This document shows positions 1-10,071 of a stretch of 24,230 nt of DNA, piece by piece. This DNA comes from a virus, in IMG/VR virus record IMGVR_UViG_3300025286_000139, positions 1-24,230 of that record; one strand, 5' to 3'. The translations under genes and the position numbers were made by a program. Within the stretch, counting starts at the first letter, position 1; each line of letters begins with the position of its first letter. A model generated the notes under the pieces. It made no database searches and was not told the DNA's origin. It saw only the letters and a program-made list of their open reading frames with translations.

Positions 1-112
1 CCCTATACCCCCTACCCCCACTAGTCTGTTCATCTTACCTATACCCCCTATATTACCTAAAATGCCGGGGTGGTACAAACAAAATAAGCCGCCCTTTCTC
101 ATTATGTATTAG
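1..112. other. Non-coding edge region with C-rich direct repeats
   Basis: No gene is supported here. The 13-mer CCTATACCCCCTA occurs twice exactly, at 2-14 and 38-50, a spacing of 36 bp, and a further C-rich run lies at 8-19. The region lies downstream of the leftward gene at 113-331, so it could hold its transcript end, a binding site for a phage protein, or part of a larger repeat array beyond the window edge. No convincing terminator hairpin is visible. Confidence 0.5.
2..50. repeat. Two exact copies of a 13-bp C-rich direct repeat
   Basis: CCTATACCCCCTA is present at 2-14 and 38-50 in direct orientation. Two copies only are visible because the window begins here. Iteron-like binding sites are possible, but nothing in the sequence assigns a function. 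Confidence 0.5.
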
Positions 113-393: not shown

Positions 394-615
394 ATGACCG
401 ATTTCAAAGAAGGCAATGCGATTCCATTGCAAATGTATATCAAGGCTACGGCTGACCTTGAGTGTGACGTTGAAAAAGACCTTGAGGCAAAAGATCCCGA
501 TACAGACGAGGCAAAAGCTATCCTATCCGGCGAAGCTAATGAAAGTACCGAAGGGAATGACGGAAGAACAAGTTCTTCAGACGATACAGAAAGTAGTGTA
601 CCGGACGGCGAATAA
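394..615 (+). CDS. Small acidic protein, first gene of sigma operon
   Basis: A 73-residue, strongly acidic protein with no recognised family. Asp and Glu dominate residues 25-73, and the tail is rich in Ser/Thr and probably disordered. The start follows an AGGA ribosome binding site at 383-386 and is the first ATG downstream of the promoter at 345-361. The last 59 nt overlap the start of the sigma-factor gene in another frame, much longer than the 1-8 nt overlaps further along the operon. In T4 the late sigma gp55 works with a small co-activator, gp33; the position and charge make a co-regulator conceivable, but no gp33-like motif can be claimed. The alternative is a non-functional leader ORF coupled to the sigma gene. 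Confidence 0.5.
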   Translation: MTDFKEGNAIPLQMYIKATADLECDVEKDLEAKDPDTDEAKAILSGEANESTEGNDGRTSSSDDTESSVPDGE

Positions 616-1084
616 GTACAAATTTGGCTATTATGATTACGACGACATCTGTCAAGAGGGTTTCATAATCGCCATGGAGGGTCTCGAACGTTACGATGGC
701 GTCCGACCTCTGGAAAACTTTTTAGCCGTACACGTTTCTAATCGATTAAAGAACTTTAAACGTGATAACTTCTGTCGCCAAGAATCCATTTCAGCGAGTG
801 GATCATCTTGGTTATTAAACGACACAAAGAGGTTCTTGATGGAGCCACTTGATATATCTTCGATTCGTGATGAAAAGGAATCGGGGATGAGTACCGACGA
901 CAACTTTATCGCTGATATTGAAACCAAAGAAATTGTAAGCGTTATTGATAAGTACCTAGACGTTTCAATGAGATCTGATTACTTGCGCATGCTTCACGAA
1001 GTATATGTTCCAAAGCATCGACGTGAGCAAATCATCGAAACGATAACGAATATCGTCAGGGAGCACGCCGATGAAGAAGGGTAG
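557..1084 (+). CDS. Phage late sigma factor, gp55-like
   Basis: A 175-residue sigma-70-family protein, close in length to T4 gp55 (about 185). It would bind host RNA polymerase and direct it to phage late promoters. Residues about 15-75 look like sigma region 2: an aromatic, Tyr-rich stretch (KYKFGYYDYDDICQEGF), then an amphipathic helix with ERYD, then a helix beginning PLENFLAVHVSNRLKNFKRD, which fits the region that binds the polymerase coiled coil and melts the -10 element. A short basic helix near the C-terminus (KHRREQIIETI) may be a remnant of region 4. The reading frame is open from 416, but the ATG at 557 is preferred because GAAGGG precedes it directly and the upstream 47 residues are low-quality and overlap the acidic gene. 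The TATAAT-like promoters in this window are its natural targets. Confidence 0.7.
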   Translation: MTEEQVLQTIQKVVYRTANKYKFGYYDYDDICQEGFIIAMEGLERYDGVRPLENFLAVHVSNRLKNFKRDNFCRQESISASGSSWLLNDTKRFLMEPLDISSIRDEKESGMSTDDNFIADIETKEIVSVIDKYLDVSMRSDYLRMLHEVYVPKHRREQIIETITNIVREHADEEG

Positions 1085-1871
1085 ATTCTCTAAATCAGAG
1101 ATTGCTTTCATAAAATCTAACTGTGAACATCTTTCTTATGAGGAACTGGGTACGAAACTTGACAGAGACCCAGAAAGCGTCGAGAGCTTCGTTAAATCAA
1201 AATTGGGCAAGGATGTCTCATCGAAACAAGAGCGTGCCGTACAGGCTGAATACGACCTTAAGAGACGCCCCTACTGGAAAGATCTAAAGGAGCAATTTAA
1301 TCCTAGCGAGCTAGAGATGATCTTGTTCCATTGGGGGCGCATGATTGGGCAATTTAGAGACGATGTGCTACCCACAGAAGAACTCCAAGTTCTTGACACG
1401 ATCAAGCTGGAGATTCTTATGAACCGGGCATTGAAAGAGCAGCAGAAGGGAATGAAGGATGTCGAAAACATGGAGAGACTGGTTACAGATGAAAAGCGAA
1501 AAAGCCTCGAAGATCAGGACATGGATGCAATTTTTAACATGGAAAGACAGATCGCCGTCCTGCGAGCCGCTCAAGAAACGCTCAATAAAGACTACAAGGA
1601 CTTGGGTCAAAAGAAAGCCGTCATGCTCCGAGATATGAAGGCTACGAGAGAGCAGCGCATTAAACGCTTAGAAGATTCAAAAGAGACATTTGTCGGCTGG
1701 ATCAAGAGACTACTAGACGACCCATCACACTCCAGAGAGCTTGGCCTCAGAATGGAGAAAATGCGGATAGCTGCGGATGAAGAAAAGACCCGCCTATCTG
1801 AGTATCACCAATACGAAGATGGTGGCATAGACCAACCATTCTTAACCCCAGAGACAGCCAAAGATGATTAA
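1071..1871 (+). CDS. Helix-rich protein, possible terminase small subunit
   Basis: A 266-residue, mostly helical and charged protein. Residues 5-45 resemble a helix-turn-helix (SYEELGTKLDRDPESVESF). Residues about 75-225 are rich in Glu, Lys, Arg and Leu with coiled-coil character, including a long helix around the ERQIAVLRAAQETL stretch. A DNA-binding N-terminus followed by a coiled-coil oligomerisation region is the usual plan of small terminase subunits, which recognise phage DNA and load the large subunit. No other gene in the window fills that role, although it lies 4 kb from the large terminase. The start at 1071 has a GGGAG ribosome binding site and overlaps the sigma gene by 14 nt. 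The family assignment rests on architecture and context only; it could instead be a transcription-related partner of the sigma factor. Confidence 0.4.
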   Translation: MKKGRFSKSEIAFIKSNCEHLSYEELGTKLDRDPESVESFVKSKLGKDVSSKQERAVQAEYDLKRRPYWKDLKEQFNPSELEMILFHWGRMIGQFRDDVLPTEELQVLDTIKLEILMNRALKEQQKGMKDVENMERLVTDEKRKSLEDQDMDAIFNMERQIAVLRAAQETLNKDYKDLGQKKAVMLRDMKATREQRIKRLEDSKETFVGWIKRLLDDPSHSRELGLRMEKMRIAADEEKTRLSEYHQYEDGGIDQPFLTPETAKDD

Positions 1872-2391
1872 ACATACAATATTCCTAAAATGGTGGCTCT
1901 TCATGAGCATCGTTCTTATCGCCTCTATATTTGGCTATAGAAACGGTGTGTTTGCTGAAGTATATGAAGCTGACTTCACCAAGCTAAGTGTCGTTCTCGC
2001 CGCCCTCTTTACTTACATGTCTATTTGGTGCGGAGTCAAAACGTGGCAGCTTAGCCAATTCCTAGACACATACGATACAAACAAAGAAAACAACTCTGTA
2101 ATCGTAGAGAGAATCGAACACCTAACCGAAGTCGGCTGGTTCGTATCCGACCTGTGTCTAAGCATCGGTATGATCGGAACCGTAGTTGGCTTTATCATGA
2201 TGCTCGGCGGCTTCTTTACCGTTGACTTCTCAGACGCCGCCACTCTCCAAAATCTTATCAAAGATCTAGGCTCCGGTATGTCTGTCGCCCTCTACACAAC
2301 CCTAGTTGGACTTGTTTGTTCTGCTTTGTTAAAGGTACAGTATTTCAATCTTAACCAAGGTATCTCTCGTATATTGGCTAAGATGTCATGA
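1864..2391 (+). CDS. MotA/TolQ/ExbB-family proton channel protein
   Basis: A 175-residue inner-membrane protein. Four hydrophobic segments are visible at about residues 8-28, 41-60, 97-117 and 138-160. The last two carry the family signature: IGMIGTVVGFI (101-111) with Thr106 in the pore-lining GTV turn, then GMSVALYTTLVGL (138-150) with Thr145/Thr146, matching the AL-T-GL pattern of ExbB, TolQ and MotA. In characterised systems five such subunits surround two ExbD/MotB-type subunits and use ion flow to drive rotation. It is a compact version: the long cytoplasmic tail of ZorA and the large cytoplasmic loop of MotA are absent. The gene overlaps its neighbours by 8 and 4 nt, so it should be made together with the partner encoded next. 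Family confidence is high; the role in a phage is unknown. Confidence 0.85.
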   Translation: MIKHTIFLKWWLFMSIVLIASIFGYRNGVFAEVYEADFTKLSVVLAALFTYMSIWCGVKTWQLSQFLDTYDTNKENNSVIVERIEHLTEVGWFVSDLCLSIGMIGTVVGFIMMLGGFFTVDFSDAATLQNLIKDLGSGMSVALYTTLVGLVCSALLKVQYFNLNQGISRILAKMS

Positions 2392-2993
2392 GAAAACGCA
2401 CATACGATACAAATGTAGCATTTCTAGATCTGTTGTTTAACACCCTCCTGTGTTTCGCCGCCCTCTTTACTCTTTCTTTCGTAATGATCAACCCATCTAG
2501 AGAGAACGCTAACACGGAATCAAAAGCTGAGTTCATTATTACCGTAACTTGGCCACACGAACAGGATAACGATGTTGACGTATACGTTGAAGACCCGGAA
2601 GGTCACCTTGTTTCTTTCTCCCGTCGAGAAGACGGCCTTATGCATCTAGATCGTGACGACTTGGGACATAGAAACGATACTATCCAGACACCAGACGGCC
2701 CCATCACGTATAATGAAAACAGGGAGATTGTCTCCATTCGCGGTATACTTCCCGGTGAATATATAGTAAATGTACACATGTACCATATGAACTCTGAAGA
2801 ACCATGCCCCGTCACTCTTCAGCTTGATAAAATTAACCCTTACAAGACCGCAGCCCTCAAAGAAGTCACGTTAATAGTTAAAGAAGAAGAGAAAACAGCC
2901 TTTCGCTTCACTGTGAATCAAAATGGCGACGTGATTGACGTAAATGAATTACCCAAAGACTTAGCCCACGCAAATCGAGCACCTCCTCTATGA
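2388..2993 (+). CDS. ExbD/MotB-like protein with YfaP-like C-terminal domain
   Basis: A 201-residue protein with a short basic cytoplasmic N-terminus, one transmembrane helix at about residues 10-34 and a periplasmic domain. The helix has an Asp near its start (FLDLLFNTLL, Asp14), where ExbD, TolR and MotB carry their essential ion-binding Asp. Residues about 48-180 form a beta-rich domain with DNDVDVYVEDPEG (60-72), HLDRDDLGH (86-94) and a GILPGEYIVNVH strand (119-130), the pattern of YfaP/DUF2135-type domains. This differs from MotB and ZorB, which have an OmpA-type peptidoglycan-binding domain, and from ExbD/TolR, which have a small dimer domain. The ATG overlaps the channel gene by 4 nt, supporting a channel-stator pair. 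The helix-with-Asp plus neighbour makes the class likely; the domain name is from pattern recognition. Confidence 0.75.
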   Translation: MRKRTYDTNVAFLDLLFNTLLCFAALFTLSFVMINPSRENANTESKAEFIITVTWPHEQDNDVDVYVEDPEGHLVSFSRREDGLMHLDRDDLGHRNDTIQTPDGPITYNENREIVSIRGILPGEYIVNVHMYHMNSEEPCPVTLQLDKINPYKTAALKEVTLIVKEEEKTAFRFTVNQNGDVIDVNELPKDLAHANRAPPL

Positions 2994-3529
2994 ACATCAT
3001 TCCCACCTTTATCCTGCTTGGGGGATTAATACTCTGGTTCGTAATAGGAACTAAAGGGTACTGGTCGCTTAAAATGATTCTCATCACCATGACGGTGTGT
3101 TTCAGCCTATTCCTGTCACAGACCATGGAAGACGTGAGAGGGTGGCCTACGGACGACGAGCTTCCAAATAAGTTCAGAGTGCATTGGATAGTTATCAAGG
3201 AGCCAAGCAAAACGGATCATAATGAAAAGGGCGGGATATATCTGTGGGTAACGGATTTGGCCGGGGACGGGAAACAGCCTCGTGCCTACAGGTCTGAATA
3301 CAGCCGCGAGAAACACGAGGACGCCCAGAAAGCCATCGGAATGATTATGGAGGGAAAGCCTGTCGCGGGTAGTCGCGGGGGTTCTGAGGGTGAAGGAGAG
3401 GGCGAAGGAGAGGGAGACGGCAAAAAGGGGCAAGGACAAGGAAATGGAACTGGCGACGGTAGCCTCAGTGATAGTCCCGAGATTATCTTTCATGAGCTAC
3501 CACCGTCTAAACTACCGGAGAAAAATTAA
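2990..3529 (+). CDS. Membrane protein with Gly/Glu-rich linker, motor cassette
   Basis: A 179-residue protein starting in a 4-nt overlap with the stator-like gene. Two hydrophobic helices lie at residues 3-20 and 27-44. A soluble region (about 50-120) contains FRVHWIVIKEP, GGIYLWVTDL and PRAYRSEYSREKHEDAQKAI. It is followed by a low-complexity stretch (about 125-160) of Gly-Glu and Gly-Gln repeats, encoded partly by a 12-bp tandem repeat at 3389-3412, and a short non-repetitive end (EIIFHELPPSK). I do not recognise a characterised family. Two anchors, a flexible linker and a conserved-looking tip recall how TonB or TolA transmit work from ExbBD or TolQR, but that is analogy only. It is co-translated with the channel and stator genes and is best treated as the third component. 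Confidence 0.65.
   Translation: MNIIPTFILLGGLILWFVIGTKGYWSLKMILITMTVCFSLFLSQTMEDVRGWPTDDELPNKFRVHWIVIKEPSKTDHNEKGGIYLWVTDLAGDGKQPRAYRSEYSREKHEDAQKAIGMIMEGKPVAGSRGGSEGEGEGEGEGDGKKGQGQGNGTGDGSLSDSPEIIFHELPPSKLPEKN
3389..3412 (+). repeat. 12-bp tandem repeat encoding Gly-Glu linker
   Basis: Two tandem units, GGTGAAGGAGAG (3389-3400) and GGCGAAGGAGAG (3401-3412), followed by a decaying copy, encode the GEGEGEGE part of the linker of the third motor-cassette protein. Slippage at this repeat could change linker length. Confidence 0.6.
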
Positions 3530-4554
3530 TGAACAAAAACGCAATTGTGTTCGGTATAACCGGCCAAGACGGTTCATACTTAGCAGAACTCTTATTGGGC
3601 AAGAACTACAACGTAATCGGAGTGACACGGAGGGTTAGTACCGGCAATACGGGCCGGATTGCACACCTCATGGACTGCCCGCATTTACGGTTAGTAGAGG
3701 GCGACTTAACTGACTACAGCAGCATCTTGCGTATTATTGAAGAGTATGAGCCAAAAGAGGTGTATAATCTTGCAGCGATGAGCCATGTTGGCACATCCTT
3801 TGACCAACCTCTGCTTTCATTTGATGTCACTGGAAAGGGATGCTTAAATATCCTTGAAGTTCTTAGGGAGCACAGTTCTTACGCAAGGTTTTATCAAGCG
3901 TCTTCCAGTGAAATGTTTGGAGATGCGTTAACACAAATAGGTGGTGATAAGTATCAAGATGAAAAAACTCTATTTAGACCTCAATCTCCATATGCCATAG
4001 CCAAGCTTGCTGCTCATCACGCAACTAGACTATATAGACAATCTTATGGATTACATGCTAGTTGTGGAATTTTGTTTAACCACGAGAGCGAGAGAAGAGG
4101 CGGAAGGTTTGTTACAAAGAAGATTACAAAATATATCGCCAAGCTACATCATTATCTTGAAGAAGACGGTGATATCGAGTCTGCGCCCAAGCTACACTTA
4201 GGAAACTTGGACGCCAAAAGGGATTGGGGACACGCCGAAGACTATGTGCGCGCTATGTGGCTGATGTTACAGGAAGACGTACCGGATGATTATGTGATAG
4301 CTACGGGGACGACACATTCTGTTAGGGACTTTTTGAAAGCGGCGTTCAATAAAATTGGAATAGAGGAGTATATGGATTTTGTAGTTCAGGATCCGAAATT
4401 TATGAGACCCTCAGAAGTTCCGTACTTAAAGGGTAACTATTCCAAAGCAAGGGTGGTGCTGGGCTGGGATCCGAAGGTGGATTTCGACCAGCTAGTTTCT
4501 AGGATGGTAGAGTACGATATTCAACAAGTCAAGGAACAGGAGACAGCAGGATGA
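3529..4554 (+). CDS. gmd: GDP-mannose 4,6-dehydratase
   Basis: A 341-residue short-chain dehydrogenase/reductase family enzyme converting GDP-mannose to GDP-4-keto-6-deoxymannose, the precursor of GDP-fucose, GDP-rhamnose, GDP-perosamine and related sugars. Visible motifs are the NADP-binding GITGQDGSYL (9-18), the catalytic SSSEMFG (125-131) and YAIAK (Tyr155, Lys159), the substrate region NHESERRGGRFV (184-195) and RDWGHAEDYV (231-240), all typical of GMD. Length matches bacterial GMD (about 340-370). It begins in a TAATG junction with the motor cassette and ends in an ATGA overlap, so it is part of the same operon. gmd is a known auxiliary gene in marine phages and usually linked to surface polysaccharide change, but no partner epimerase/reductase is in this window, so the final sugar is not predictable. 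Confidence 0.95.
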   Translation: MNKNAIVFGITGQDGSYLAELLLGKNYNVIGVTRRVSTGNTGRIAHLMDCPHLRLVEGDLTDYSSILRIIEEYEPKEVYNLAAMSHVGTSFDQPLLSFDVTGKGCLNILEVLREHSSYARFYQASSSEMFGDALTQIGGDKYQDEKTLFRPQSPYAIAKLAAHHATRLYRQSYGLHASCGILFNHESERRGGRFVTKKITKYIAKLHHYLEEDGDIESAPKLHLGNLDAKRDWGHAEDYVRAMWLMLQEDVPDDYVIATGTTHSVRDFLKAAFNKIGIEEYMDFVVQDPKFMRPSEVPYLKGNYSKARVVLGWDPKVDFDQLVSRMVEYDIQQVKEQETAG

Positions 4555-5796: not shown

Positions 5797-7753
5797 GCAA
5801 GCAGCAATAGACGACGCTTGGCTAAATATAGAGGTAGACGAGCGAGACCTTTTTAATCCGATGTCTTTTTTTTCGTCCGGTGATCCAGACGATTTCGAGA
5901 CCCGTTTAGCTTGGATAATGTCCAACCCAGAATATTTTCCTTTTATTGTAAAGGAGATATTCAATATTGATTTACTGCCTGTTCAAGCCCTAATGCTTAA
6001 AGAGATGTGGATTCGTAAGTTTCCCATGCTCATTGCCTCTCGTGGATTTGGCAAAAGCTTTATCCTCTCCCTGTATGCGATGATGAGAGCAGTTCTTTTA
6101 CCTCCCAGAAAGATTGTTGTTGTTGGTGCAGCTTTTCGTCAATCTAAAGTTCTCTTTGAATATATGGAAACTATCTATCAGAACGCCCCCTTGTTGAGAG
6201 ACATGGTAACCTGTACCCCAAGGAGGGATGTAGATAGATGTCAAATGACCATAGGCGAGAGCACTATAGTGTGCTTACCGCTAGGCGATGGGTCAAAGAT
6301 CAGAGGCCAGCGAGCTAATGATATTATTGCTGATGAATTTGCTTCAATTCCCAGAGAAATTTTTGAAAACGTCGTAGCTGGATTTGCTGCGGTAAGCGCA
6401 TCTCCAATTGAAAACGTGAAGAGAATAGCCGCTAAAAAGAGAGCCTTAGAGCTTGGGGACGACGCCAAAGACGCTGAAGAAGATCCTATTCAAAGTTCCA
6501 ACCAGATAATTTTGTCTGGTACGGCTTATTATGATTTTAACCATTTTTCAGAGTATTGGAAAAAGTGGAAAACCATTATACAGAGCAAGGGCCGCAAAAA
6601 GAGACTTCAGGCTATATTTGGTACGGAAGAAATACCCAGAGGGTTTGATTGGACGCAGTATAGTATAATTAGAATTCCTTTTGAGCTTGTTCCAGAAGGA
6701 TTTATGGATGAAGCGCAAGTGGCAAGATCTAAGGCTACTGTCCATTCAGGTATTTATGAGATGGAGTTTGGGGCGTGCTTTAGCACAGACAGTCAGGGGT
6801 TTTTCAAGAGATCTCTTATAGAGTCCTGCGTTGCTTCTTATAACAATGATATATCATTACCTAGTGGGGAAGTTTCGTTTGAGGCTGCTCTTAGGGGCAA
6901 TCCTAATTGCAGATATGTATATGGGGTAGATCCAGCCTCAGAAGTTGATAATTTCAGCATTGTACTTTTGGAGCTACACGAAGACCACAGCCGGATTGTT
7001 CATTGCTGGACCACCAATAGGTCAGAGCACAAAGAAAAAGTCAAGATGGGTGTCGTTAGCGAAATGGATTTTTATTCATACTGTGCGCGAAAAATACGCG
7101 ATCTTATGAAAACCTTTCCCTGTGAGAGAATTTCTATGGACGCTCAAGGTGGCGGCATAGCCGTAATGGAGGCTTTGCACGATCCAGATAAAATCCACGA
7201 AGGAGAGCTTCCAATATGGGAAATTATAGATGACAACAAAGAAAAAGATACTGATGGAAATCCGGGATTGCATATTTTAGAGATGTGTCAATTTGCTAAA
7301 TCAGACTGGCTTTCTGAGGCTAATCACGGTATGAGAAAGGACTTTGAAGATAAAGTTCTTCTGTTCCCATTTTTTGATGCTGTTTCTCTCGGATTGGCAG
7401 CTTCCGAAGACAAAATAACTAAAAGAAAGTACGACACCCTAGAAGATTGCGTTATGGAGCTAGAAGAACTCAAAGATGAGTTGTCAATGATCATTATCAG
7501 TCAAACTGCTGCTGGTAGAGACAAATGGGACACTCCAGAAGTTAAACTTGCGGGTGGACGAAAAGATCGCTTGCGGAAAGATAGATATAGTGCCCTGCTT
7601 ATGTGTAATATGTCTGCTAGAACGATGCACAGGACGCCCGCGCCTCTAGATTACAACCCCACCGGAGGGTTTGCAGAAAGATCAAAAGGTCAAGATGGCC
7701 CCAGTTATATAGGTCCAGCATGGTTTACCGAAGGTATGAAAGATGTTTACTAG
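5789..7753 (+). CDS. terL: Terminase large subunit
   Basis: A 654-residue DNA-packaging motor. The N-terminal ATPase has Walker A SRGFGKSF (84-91), Walker B DIIADEF (178-184) with catalytic Glu183, and the coupling motif ILSGTA (241-246). The C-terminal RNase-H-like nuclease has acidic residues in YVYGVDPASE (Asp381), ERISMDAQGGG (Asp451) and near KDRLRKDRYSALL. It docks on the portal, pumps DNA into the prohead and cuts concatemers. A 30-residue Ala/Lys/Asp-rich insertion (about 205-235) between Walker B and motif III is unusual. The start overlaps the ERCC4 gene by 8 nt. A new promoter begins just after the stop, separating this gene from the head genes. Confidence 0.95.
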   Translation: MDKQAAIDDAWLNIEVDERDLFNPMSFFSSGDPDDFETRLAWIMSNPEYFPFIVKEIFNIDLLPVQALMLKEMWIRKFPMLIASRGFGKSFILSLYAMMRAVLLPPRKIVVVGAAFRQSKVLFEYMETIYQNAPLLRDMVTCTPRRDVDRCQMTIGESTIVCLPLGDGSKIRGQRANDIIADEFASIPREIFENVVAGFAAVSASPIENVKRIAAKKRALELGDDAKDAEEDPIQSSNQIILSGTAYYDFNHFSEYWKKWKTIIQSKGRKKRLQAIFGTEEIPRGFDWTQYSIIRIPFELVPEGFMDEAQVARSKATVHSGIYEMEFGACFSTDSQGFFKRSLIESCVASYNNDISLPSGEVSFEAALRGNPNCRYVYGVDPASEVDNFSIVLLELHEDHSRIVHCWTTNRSEHKEKVKMGVVSEMDFYSYCARKIRDLMKTFPCERISMDAQGGGIAVMEALHDPDKIHEGELPIWEIIDDNKEKDTDGNPGLHILEMCQFAKSDWLSEANHGMRKDFEDKVLLFPFFDAVSLGLAASEDKITKRKYDTLEDCVMELEELKDELSMIIISQTAAGRDKWDTPEVKLAGGRKDRLRKDRYSALLMCNMSARTMHRTPAPLDYNPTGGFAERSKGQDGPSYIGPAWFTEGMKDVY

Positions 7754-7757
7754 CAGA

Positions 7758-7770
7758 TTGGTGTATAATA
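7758..7770 (+). promoter_or_regulatory. Late promoter before portal gene
   Basis: TTGGTGTATAATA is an exact match to the conserved element of the window. It lies 5 nt after the terminase stop and 52 nt before the portal ATG. The leader contains the 10-bp palindrome TGTAATTACA at 7792-7801. No convincing -35 box is visible. Confidence 0.65.
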
Positions 7771-7821
7771 TTTTAGACAATTCCTATTCAATGTAATTAC
7801 AATCCTATTACAGGTGTGTAG

Positions 7822-10071
7822 ATGGCCAAATCAAAAAAAGAAGACAACCCTATCAAAGACCACATTCCAGAACCGGCTTTTGTGACATGGGATAATAATG
7901 ACGAAAAGGCCGCTGCCCTAGCCGCCTCCGCTGGCGCCGTGGAGGTTTATGATGGTATTGGTAGCTCTACTGCATCACATCGATCTTTCCTAGATGTTGA
8001 AGGCAATATTTCTGTTAGAACGGGTTATCAGAGAGACGACTATAACAGGTTTCGATCTAGAGAGGCCATTCCTAGACAACAAAAGAAGATTATGGCTAAG
8101 TGTATGGATGCTTATGACAGGGTTGGCATTATTAGAAATGTTATCGATTTAATGGGGGATTTTGCCACTCAGGGAATTAGCATAGTTCATCCCAACAAGA
8201 GAATTGAAAGATTCTTTCAGAAATGGTTTGACAAAGTTTCTGGCAAAGAGCGCTCAGAAAGATTTCTAAACAACCTGTATAGATGTGGGAATGTCGTAGT
8301 TAAACGCCAAAATGCGAAATTGTCAAAAAAGCTAGAGAAGGAACTGGCTAAAGGATCAACTCCTGATATAGAAATCTTGCTTCCTAAAGTAACAAAGAGA
8401 GAGATACCTTGGAGGTACGATTTTCTGAATCCTCTTACGGTGGAAGTTATAGGCGGGCAACTTGCTATATTTGCAGGAGACCCGCAGCTAGGTCTTAAGG
8501 TTTCTGCAACCATTAAGAAGATGGTTCTCAGCGGGAGCGAGTACCCAGAAATTATAGCCAAGCTTCCCAAGGATCTCGTTAAGTCTATCAGGGATGGTAA
8601 TAGCATTATTCCCCTAGACCCTGATAAAACGTCCATTCATTACTACAAGAAAGATGACTGGCAGATATGGGCCAACCCCATGATACTATCTGTGTTAGAT
8701 GATGTTGTCATGCTTGAAAAAATGAAGCTTGCCGATATGTCTGCTTTGGATGGGGCTATTTCTAATATACGACTCTGGAAGCTTGGTGACCTAGACAACA
8801 AAATTTTGCCCACCAAGACTGGCGTTAACAAGCTAAGAAATATCTTGGCGAGCAACGTTGGCGGCGGGACCATGGATTTGGTTTGGGGTCCAGAGCTTGA
8901 CTTTAAAGAGTCTGCCACTGAAGTCCACAAATTCTTGGGAGCAGAAAAATATCAGCCGGTGCTGACCAGTATCTATGCTGGTTTAGGTATTCCACCCACT
9001 CTCACCGGGGCTTCTAATTCTTCTGGCGGTGGATTTACTAACAACTTTGTTTCTCTCAAGACTCTCATCGAGAGACTGGAGTATGGCAGAGATTTGCTTG
9101 TTTCGTTTTGGAACGCGGAGATAGAGGCTGTTCAAAAGGCTATGGGCTTTAGATTTCCTGCTAAGATCCATTTTGAACAAATGATTCTCTCTGATGAGGC
9201 GGCTGAAAAGAACTTGTTGATTCAGCTTGTTGACCGGGATCTTATTAGCGCCGAAACTGTACAGGCTAGATTTGGAGAACTGCCAGAAATTGAGAGAATT
9301 AGAATTAAGCGAGAAGTCAAGGATAGAGAGAACGAAAAGATGCCACAGAAATCCGGTCCTTATCACAACCCACAGCATAGAAACGATCTGGAGAAGATAG
9401 CCTTGGGTAAAGACCTGTTAGAGGCAGAGGATCTGGGTTTGATTCCATCTGAAGAAACTGGGAATCACCCGTTTACAAAACCAGAAGACAGGCGCGATAC
9501 CGCAGTGGTAGAGGAGAAGAAGGAGGAGAAGAAGGATAAACAGGACGAGCGAGAGATGAAAAAAATGGATCAAAAGCAGCAATCACAACCTCCACAACAA
9601 AAAGAGTTCGGTCCTACTGGTAGACCAGAGGACGGCAGACCAAAGAACGCTAAAGATGAACAGAAACGGAAGCAGAAGCGCGTAGTGCCTAAAAGCGCCG
9701 CTAGTGATTTCACTAATCTGTTTTTGTGGGCCAACGACGCTCAAAAACAAATAGCGGAAATTGTTCATCCAGCACTGCTTGCTCACTATGACAAGAAGAA
9801 TATAAGAAGCTTGACTAAAAGCCAAATGGATGAACTTGAATACATTAAGTTTTGTCTATTGTGCGGTTTGAAGCCTTATGTGGAATTAGATATTGATGTT
9901 ATTCAACAGCTACTTCAAAACTCTAATACCGCCACTAACACCGCGTTATCTGCGGCCCGAAGAGAATTTGTTACGGAGTTTGTGTCTGTAAACGGTAAAC
10001 AACCCACCGTTGAAGAAATGCGCAATATTCAATCTTCGGCGTATGCTATGCGCACTTTGACCAACCTGTAA
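7822..10071 (+). CDS. Portal protein
   Basis: A 749-residue protein, long for a portal. It forms the dodecameric ring at one capsid vertex through which DNA enters and leaves. Features seen are an N-terminal helical region (about 80-135), a beta-rich wing region (about 180-280), and VLTSIYAGLGIPPTLTG (about 380-396), a characteristic portal stretch, followed by a Gly/Ser turn and the long stem helix (LIERLEYGRDLLVSFW). Residues about 555-620 are a highly charged Lys/Glu/Gln-rich segment, then a helical C-terminal domain of about 120 residues. The start is preceded by AGGTGTGTAG and lies downstream of a dedicated promoter. The charged extension may contact scaffold or packaged DNA. Confidence 0.9.
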   Translation: MAKSKKEDNPIKDHIPEPAFVTWDNNDEKAAALAASAGAVEVYDGIGSSTASHRSFLDVEGNISVRTGYQRDDYNRFRSREAIPRQQKKIMAKCMDAYDRVGIIRNVIDLMGDFATQGISIVHPNKRIERFFQKWFDKVSGKERSERFLNNLYRCGNVVVKRQNAKLSKKLEKELAKGSTPDIEILLPKVTKREIPWRYDFLNPLTVEVIGGQLAIFAGDPQLGLKVSATIKKMVLSGSEYPEIIAKLPKDLVKSIRDGNSIIPLDPDKTSIHYYKKDDWQIWANPMILSVLDDVVMLEKMKLADMSALDGAISNIRLWKLGDLDNKILPTKTGVNKLRNILASNVGGGTMDLVWGPELDFKESATEVHKFLGAEKYQPVLTSIYAGLGIPPTLTGASNSSGGGFTNNFVSLKTLIERLEYGRDLLVSFWNAEIEAVQKAMGFRFPAKIHFEQMILSDEAAEKNLLIQLVDRDLISAETVQARFGELPEIERIRIKREVKDRENEKMPQKSGPYHNPQHRNDLEKIALGKDLLEAEDLGLIPSEETGNHPFTKPEDRRDTAVVEEKKEEKKDKQDEREMKKMDQKQQSQPPQQKEFGPTGRPEDGRPKNAKDEQKRKQKRVVPKSAASDFTNLFLWANDAQKQIAEIVHPALLAHYDKKNIRSLTKSQMDELEYIKFCLLCGLKPYVELDIDVIQQLLQNSNTATNTALSAARREFVTEFVSVNGKQPTVEEMRNIQSSAYAMRTLTNL

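Follow-up and report, generated by a model that had tools for sequence, protein, structure and literature searches.

The DNA analyzed here (24,230 nucleotides, IMG/VR record IMGVR_UViG_3300025286_000139; hereafter the window) is a tailed-phage contig that carries three consecutive genes for membrane proteins, referred to as genes 1, 2, and 3, which together constitute a cassette (Table 1). The genes are tightly packed: the upstream open reading frame runs 8 nt into gene 1, each of the two internal junctions is a 4-nt overlap (ATGA), and gene 3 shares one nucleotide (3529) with the gene for GDP-mannose 4,6-dehydratase (GMD). A first-pass annotation, made from the sequence alone, had described such overlapping joins together with an upstream phage sigma factor, and both points are borne out, the latter by a Sigma70_r2 match in the same gene run; among relatives this gene is a neighbor in only some cases. 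Its placement of the cassette inside a morphogenesis region holds for the window and does not extend as a general rule across the family, and the label of a lytic-type carrier fails for the family, given that the temperate phage 16-3 has the cassette.

Table 1. Features of the cassette and its neighborhood, in window coordinates.
Feature	Coordinates	Strand	Description	Basis
Gene 1	1864..2391	+	175 aa, MotA/TolQ/ExbB-type channel protein	Pfam PF01618
Gene 2	2388..2993	+	201 aa, Asp14 partner	AF2 model, structure and profile comparison
Asp14 codon GAT of gene 2	2427..2429	+	putative proton-carrying aspartate	profile alignment, conservation
Gene 3	2990..3529	+	179 aa, two TM helices and predicted periplasmic part	AF2 model, charge rule
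Phage sigma factor	416..1084	+	sigma-70 region 2 protein	Pfam Sigma70_r2, E 3.2e-8
Upstream protein	1071..1871	+	unknown function	homologues near cassette in 14 loci
GMD	3529..4554	+	GDP-mannose 4,6-dehydratase	Pfam, E 1.5e-114

Gene 1 matches the Pfam family MotA_ExbB (PF01618) above its cutoff (E 5.5e-9, 36.3 bits against 22.9), 77 of 79 members of its own family match it at E ≤ 0.001, and both motifs on which its MotA/TolQ/ExbB-type identity had been proposed, GTVVGF and ALYTTLVGL, are present. Comparison with E. coli ExbB gave E 7.6e-5 (hhalign), and among solved structures the profile of gene 1 matched MotA best (9.6e-6), followed by TolQ (3.1e-4), with ZorA and ExbB weaker. Profile alignment pairs T106 (codon 2179-2181) with ExbB T148 and T146 (codon 2299-2301) with ExbB T181, so the channel has both threonines that are conserved in ExbB and TolQ; T146 is kept in all 111 loci and T106 in 106 of them, four rhizobiophage loci having N or A instead. 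ExbB Thr148 and Thr181, TolQ Thr145 and Thr178, ExbD Asp25, and TolR Asp23 have been reported to be essential (PMC12905483). In contrast to ExbB and TolQ, gene 1 is only 175 aa long, with four predicted transmembrane helices and a minimal cytoplasmic loop. Four helices are also found in the A subunit of MotA-MotB and PomA-PomB, from which the cassette differs in lacking the large torque loop and the flagellar context, and in which neither a plug nor an OmpA-like peptidoglycan-binding domain was detected.

The gene 2 protein is predicted to be N-in, with one transmembrane helix (residues 9-34, nt 2412-2489) followed by a periplasmic domain (AF2 pLDDT 90.6; the alignments used for structure prediction were built without rows from phage records). 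Asp14, which had been noted as an intramembrane residue of a single-helix protein, indeed falls in this sole predicted helix, near the cytoplasmic end as in ExbD and TolR. In profile alignment with the E. coli proteins it pairs with ExbD D25, TolR D23, and MotB D32, and when the segment was compared with 10 E. coli proteins, ExbD, TolR, and MotB ranked first (E 0.019-0.027; others ≥0.18), at a low hhalign probability of about 2%. Asp14 is kept in 110 of 110 aligned loci. The periplasmic head is modeled as a TerD-like beta-sandwich, with the DxD...DPxG...DxDDxG pattern shared with TerD and DUF2135 (YfaP): the VIA comparison with TerD (3ibz) gave Z 11.6 and 4.2 Å over 142 residues, and other TerD-like matches (2qng, Z 10.0; 2qz7, Z 9.4) stood above most unrelated rows, while Foldseek returned no match for gene 2 at E ≤ 0.001. 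The folds of ExbD/TolR, MotB, and ZorB were not among the matches listed. Of the two Pfam families suggested beforehand besides MotA_ExbB, ExbD matched neither the window protein nor any of 90 family members, and DUF2135 reached the window protein only below its cutoff (12.2 bits against 22, E 0.2) and 2 of the 90 members at E ≤ 0.01. The partner presents a TerD-like sandwich where no ExbD/TolR domain was detected, and its setting differs from that of TerD and YfaP, the domain being attached to a membrane helix of ExbD type within a motor cassette.

Conservation of the proton-path residues would also suit a device that merely dissipates the proton-motive force, as a lysis trigger or to shut down host metabolism, performing no mechanical work. 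We consider such a leak highly improbable, since the head is the most conserved part of gene 2 (W55, D62, D64, D90, D91, G93, E113, and G123 are invariant), for which a simple leak has no need, and motors of the MotA/TolQ/ExbB kind are gated against leak.

Gene 3 had been described as a two-helix protein with a Gly/Glu linker, and its model (AF2 pLDDT 83.1) contains both features: transmembrane helices at residues 3-20 and 25-49 are followed by a small alpha/beta domain, a Gly/Glu-rich linker, and a conserved FxxLPPxxLPxK motif at the C-terminal end. The loop between the helices has K/R in 111 of 111 sequences, which by the charge rule predicts an N-out protein whose C-terminal part is periplasmic. 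No confident match was found among PDB folds (Foldseek best E 0.19, VIA best Z 6.8); three matches in BFVD at E ≤ 0.001, including a Rhizobium phage “transmembrane protein,” probably belong to the same family.

As in systems bearing TonB or TolA, the cassette genes are clustered and the third encodes an inner-membrane protein with a periplasmic part. A channel, an Asp partner, and a periplasmic transducer parallel TolQRA and ExbBD-TonB, and a phage-borne substitute for Tol or Ton, keeping the outer membrane tight or importing nutrients during infection, would be in keeping with the metabolic neighbors of some loci (FBPase, ornithine cyclodeaminase, APS reductase, and GMD). This seems decidedly unlikely given that gene 2 has no detectable ExbD/TolR domain and gene 3 does not resemble TonB or TolA: it has two helices, is N-out, carries a short Gly/Glu linker, and lacks both an SHLS-type helix motif and, in the window, any His in either helix. 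Comparison with TolA (hhalign, E 0.098) was within background, and identity of gene 3 with TonB or TolA was rejected.

Relatives of gene 2 are encoded by at least 291 IMG/VR viral contigs. The first-pass annotation had proposed a survey for the same gene order, and in 163 of 163 loci with enough sequence all three genes occur in the order 1-2-3 on one strand; 111 of the loci with all three genes are non-redundant and intact, and the order and strand are kept in every one, so that a chance or decayed match, or an arrangement confined to the window, was rejected. The evolutionary distances of the three proteins are correlated (Mantel r 0.76-0.90). Their surroundings are variable, with 55 upstream gene clusters in 108 loci and 63 downstream in 110, and since the flanking genes differ between loci the three genes can be regarded as a functional unit. 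No fixed fourth partner gene was found across the 111 loci, the commonest neighbor, GMD, being near only 18. The cassette is mainly phage-borne, which separates it from ExbBD and TolQR; a purely viral distribution was rejected, as two cellular MAG contigs also have it, one next to ThrRS, MiaA, and GatB, and it is absent from 191 other genomes of the phylum of the cassette-bearing cellular MAG. The cultured carriers are 27 records of Rhizobium and Sinorhizobium phages, including 16-3, a classical laboratory phage, and in nearly all of these the genes are annotated “hypothetical.”

This constancy also bears on the idea that phage subunits mix into host TolQR/ExbBD or ZorAB and poison them. Gene 1 does keep little besides its transmembrane core, and gene 2 keeps the Asp helix under a different head, as a decoy might; yet the three genes stay together and co-evolve, and an inhibitor could do without gene 3 and without conservation of Asp14 and the threonines, making this dominant-negative role very unlikely.

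Taken with the Pfam match, the family conservation, and the residue pairing with ExbB, ExbD, TolR, and MotB, these results uphold the core of the earlier annotation, a phage channel, an Asp partner, and a third membrane protein in one cassette. The case for a motor is strong, and the best reading is a compact variant of the 5:2-type proton motor with a periplasmic head that is new to such motors; very probably it is active and ion-driven. Gene 1 would form the channel or stator ring with the gene 2 helix inside, and the driving ion would most likely be the proton. Asp14 may take protons from the periplasm and pass them along T106 and T146 of gene 1, and this passage would turn or shift a dimer of gene 2, TerD-like head included, against the ring. 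Gene 3, which its two helices would anchor next to the motor, may act as effector or transducer and, by means of its periplasmic domain, flexible linker, and conserved tail, relay force or a signal to the wall or the outer membrane.

The task of the cassette can be approached through one marine clade, in which gene 3 is fused in frame to a GH24 (T4-type) lysozyme at seven loci (L070, L072, L073, L075, L076, L086, and L092) with the E-D-T triad intact. Like SAR phage endolysins, the fusion is a membrane-anchored protein whose intact GH24 domain is predicted to be periplasmic; it differs in being anchored by a motor-cassette protein, that of gene 3, and the window cassette has no wall hydrolase domain, nor do most of its relatives have a lysozyme domain. 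Separate GH24 lysozyme genes lie near the cassette in two further loci (L059 and L078) and a few kb upstream of it in two rhizobiophages; endolysins adjoin few cassettes outside the fusion clade. Within the fused frame, a strong Shine-Dalgarno sequence (gaaggagataatgaaATG) precedes an ATG, so that translation may mainly yield lysozyme on its own, and the fused form may be incidental to the crowding of genes. Since the third part is fused to a wall-cutting enzyme in this clade, viruses may use the motor on the cell envelope, and an envelope or lysis role therefore ranks above the other functions guessed at first. Action on the wall or envelope is probable, and we lean slightly toward a compact proton motor whose effector, gene 3, controls or drives peptidoglycan and envelope breakdown around lysis, for instance, under proton-motive force, by holding a wall hydrolase, presenting it, or switching it on, with the hydrolase fused to gene 3 in one clade. 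A specific role in lysis is put forward tentatively. More speculative, and on balance doubtful, is the wider proposal that in many phage lineages such a motor governs envelope breakdown, holding or working gene 3, in some with tethered lysozyme, and linking attack on the wall to the energized state of the membrane. The cassette of T4-like rhizobiophages is situated between a topoisomerase gene and the gp55-like sigma and 46-47 nuclease genes, a region whose T4 counterpart is early/middle; this location and the four T106 substitutions speak against the preferred reading of a motor acting on the envelope.

Superinfection exclusion or inter-phage defense, in which a ZorAB-like motor senses, or responds to, the envelope disturbance that an incoming second phage causes and keeps this phage out, protecting the infected cell or lysogen, would agree with the presence of the cassette in temperate phages of the 16-3 group and with the restriction of cultured carriers to one host group, as expected of a function tuned to the host envelope. 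Zorya resembles the cassette in its MotA/TolQ/ExbB-type core and phage-related biology, and ZorA models match gene 1 weakly (best 2e-6), in the transmembrane core only. Gene 1 has no long cytoplasmic ZorA tail, measuring 175 aa where the ZorA profiles span 420-700 positions, the window gene 2 has no ZorB match, no ZorC-, ZorD-, or ZorE-like partner was seen, and the window neighbors are the sigma factor, the protein of unknown function, and GMD; membership in Zorya, which is anti-phage rather than phage-encoded, was thus rejected. Moreover, the genomes of many carriers are large and of the virulent type, and exclusion leaves the wall hydrolase fusion unexplained, so we judge it unlikely.

In bacteria, 5:2 motors driven by ions serve flagella, the Ton and Tol systems, gliding, and Zorya. 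The phylogenies of these motors that we checked make no mention of viral ones, and no paper describing such a phage cassette was found in the open-access literature searched (ExbB, TolQ, MotA, PF01618, or TerD with phage). A three-gene version in hundreds of phage contigs, with intact proton-path residues and a new periplasmic partner, suggests that viruses use this machine too. Should the motor act in envelope breakdown, it would be the first ion-driven motor known from viruses and a means of lysis control that differs from holin/spanin systems. Genes previously labeled hypothetical or p038, p040, and p042 thereby receive names and a hypothesis, and because cultured Rhizobium and Sinorhizobium phages carry the cassette, its function is directly testable.

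The MotA/TolQ/ExbB-type character that the first-pass annotation had assigned to gene 1, the channel protein of the cassette, is borne out by a Pfam match above the cutoff (E 5.5e-9), and the single N-terminal helix bearing Asp14 in gene 2 and the two helices with a Gly/Glu-rich linker in gene 3 are likewise present. The cassette belongs to the MotA/TolQ/ExbB channel family, and it is probably a compact ion-driven motor. The three genes overlap by 4 nt each, gene 1 is overlapped by 8 nt by the gene upstream, and the record, a complete 24,230-base IMG/VR entry of a tailed phage, also holds large terminase, portal, capsid and tape-measure genes as read from the ORF sequences.

Within gene 1, only D37, G102, G105, T146 and G149 are invariant in the family profile, and T106 is nearly so. 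This profile aligns with ExbB of E. coli (NC_000913, the source of all comparison proteins) at E 7.6e-5, pairing T106 with T148 and T146 with T181. A profile of the gene 2 helix placed ExbD, TolR and MotB at the top of ten E. coli proteins (E 0.019-0.027; others at least 0.18), with D14 paired to ExbD D25, TolR D23 and MotB D32. Since hhalign assigns this short helix a probability of only about 2%, weight is placed on the ranking and on the exact D14 pairing. The residues ExbD Asp25, ExbB Thr148/Thr181, TolR Asp23 and TolQ Thr145/Thr178 are essential (PMC12905483), and TolR D23 hydrogen-bonds TolQ T145/T178 (PMC12583513). D14 is found in all 110 loci that align at that position; T106 is absent from five loci, with N in two, A in two and a gap in one, and each of the N and A loci belongs to a rhizobiophage. 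Membership of ExbD/TolR by sequence was rejected, as was membership of TonB/TolA and of Zorya. The cassette probably operates like motors containing these proteins, and its novelty is a three-part, phage-borne form with a TerD-like head.

From the distribution of charges in 111 sequences, gene 1, whose four helices were taken from sequence reading, is assigned an N-in/C-in topology; gene 2 is predicted to be N-in, its head lying in the periplasm, and gene 3 to be N-out with its soluble part periplasmic. The gene 3 loop carries Lys/Arg in all 111 sequences and is nearly free of acidic residues. An AlphaFold2 model of gene 2 from 83 sequences (mean pLDDT 90.6) consists of a helix and a beta-sandwich, for which VIA-align placed a TerD protein first, above unrelated rows (Z 11.6 over 142 residues). 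Its conserved acidic pattern is reminiscent of calcium-binding TerD/DUF2135 domains. The gene 3 model (pLDDT 83.1) had no confident fold match in structure searches.

Scanning with gene 1 gave nine viral contigs with 41-62% identity, in each of which genes 2 and 3 adjoin it, and alignment-based scans of viral contigs found at least 117, 149 and 291 relatives. After merging, the order 1-2-3 on a single strand holds in 163/163 loci with enough sequence. The few loci missing a gene lie at contig ends, except L114 and L115, in which no gene 3 was recognised. In the non-redundant set of 111 loci (identical cores removed only; 99 left below 90% identity in gene 2), neighbouring genes lie at most 60 nt apart in 102 and 101. 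Pairwise distances of the three proteins correlate strongly with one another (Mantel r 0.84, 0.76 and 0.90; 0/500 permutations), and the flanks lack conservation, with 55 distinct gene clusters upstream and 63 downstream. Hence the three genes form the unit.

Four very different gene 2 queries returned 27 records each out of 50,697 phage records, and all 27 cultured carriers are Rhizobium or Sinorhizobium phages: Pootjesviridae (e.g., P10VF and RL2RES), RHph_I1_18 (171 kb), the RHph_N3_19 group (68 kb) and the temperate 16-3 group. The 16-3 phages have cassettes far removed from those of other rhizobiophages, which implies at least two arrivals in phages of this host family, or strong divergence. 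The largest viral contig with the cassette has 527 kb. A pattern scan of 84,980 species genomes of bacteria and archaea found two loci, both intact cassettes in bacterial MAG contigs (L162, L163) with apparently chromosomal surroundings; divergent cellular relatives may exist, since the scan is limited by its pattern. The setting of L163 is unexpected for an envelope motor otherwise known from phages.

Coordinates of the cassette, neighbouring genes, lysozyme fusions and a cellular locus
Feature	Contig	Position	Remark
C-rich motif	window	1-60	start of record
266-aa protein	window	1071-1871	between sigma factor and cassette
Cassette	window	1864-3529	
GDP-mannose 4,6-dehydratase	window	3529-4554	abuts cassette
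Gene 3-GH24 lysozyme fusion	L070	2768-3658	
Gene 3-GH24 lysozyme fusion	L072	2460-3353	
Gene 3-GH24 lysozyme fusion	L076	2657-3550	
Trypsin-like protease gene	L168	6247-7143	
Trypsin-like protease gene	L011, L012		upstream of cassette
Cellular locus	L163	1-16570	cassette about 7492-9215; beside ThrRS, MiaA, GatB; 1.0-Mb genome

The motor seems rather likely to work on the cell wall or envelope, and lysis is its most likely role, a reading we hold tentatively. The most telling functional clue is a clade, on marine contigs that read as T4-like from neighbouring genes, in which gene 3 is in frame with a GH24 lysozyme (L070, L072, L073, L075, L076, L086 and L092; Pfam 5e-47 to 6e-50); a targeted scan gave eight contigs with fusion relatives, two covering part of the fusion only. 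In these lysozymes the residues E, D(+9) and T(+15) are preserved, and the fusion agrees with the periplasmic placement predicted for this part of gene 3. Since an internal ATG stands behind a conserved Shine-Dalgarno, both fused and free lysozyme may be made, a possible dual product of membrane-tethered and free endolysin. Further connections with lysis are modest. In L059 and L078 the cassette has a lysozyme gene close by, in RHph_TM3_3_14B and RHph_X2_25 one is located a few kb upstream of it, and certain flanking genes have matches to the RIIA/RIIB lysis-inhibitor families. Against a pure lysis role counts that in T4-like rhizobiophages the cassette adjoins topoisomerase, gp55-like sigma and 46/47-like nuclease genes. 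GDP-mannose 4,6-dehydratase, which overlaps gene 3 by 1 nt in the window and is the commonest neighbour (18/111 loci), suggests a phage sugar-modification function.

In 16-3-type temperate rhizobiophages, a trypsin-like protease gene (Trypsin_2, 3.6e-20), its product probably periplasmic, lies just upstream of the cassette. Host-like metabolic genes recur in marine-contig flanks (flanking-gene alignments A9 and A10), namely glpX-type FBPase, ornithine cyclodeaminase, APS reductase and SbmA/BacA. The 266-aa protein, probably a coiled coil, is kept near the cassette in 14 loci, and the C-rich motif at the record's very start is repeated (CCTATACCCCCTA).
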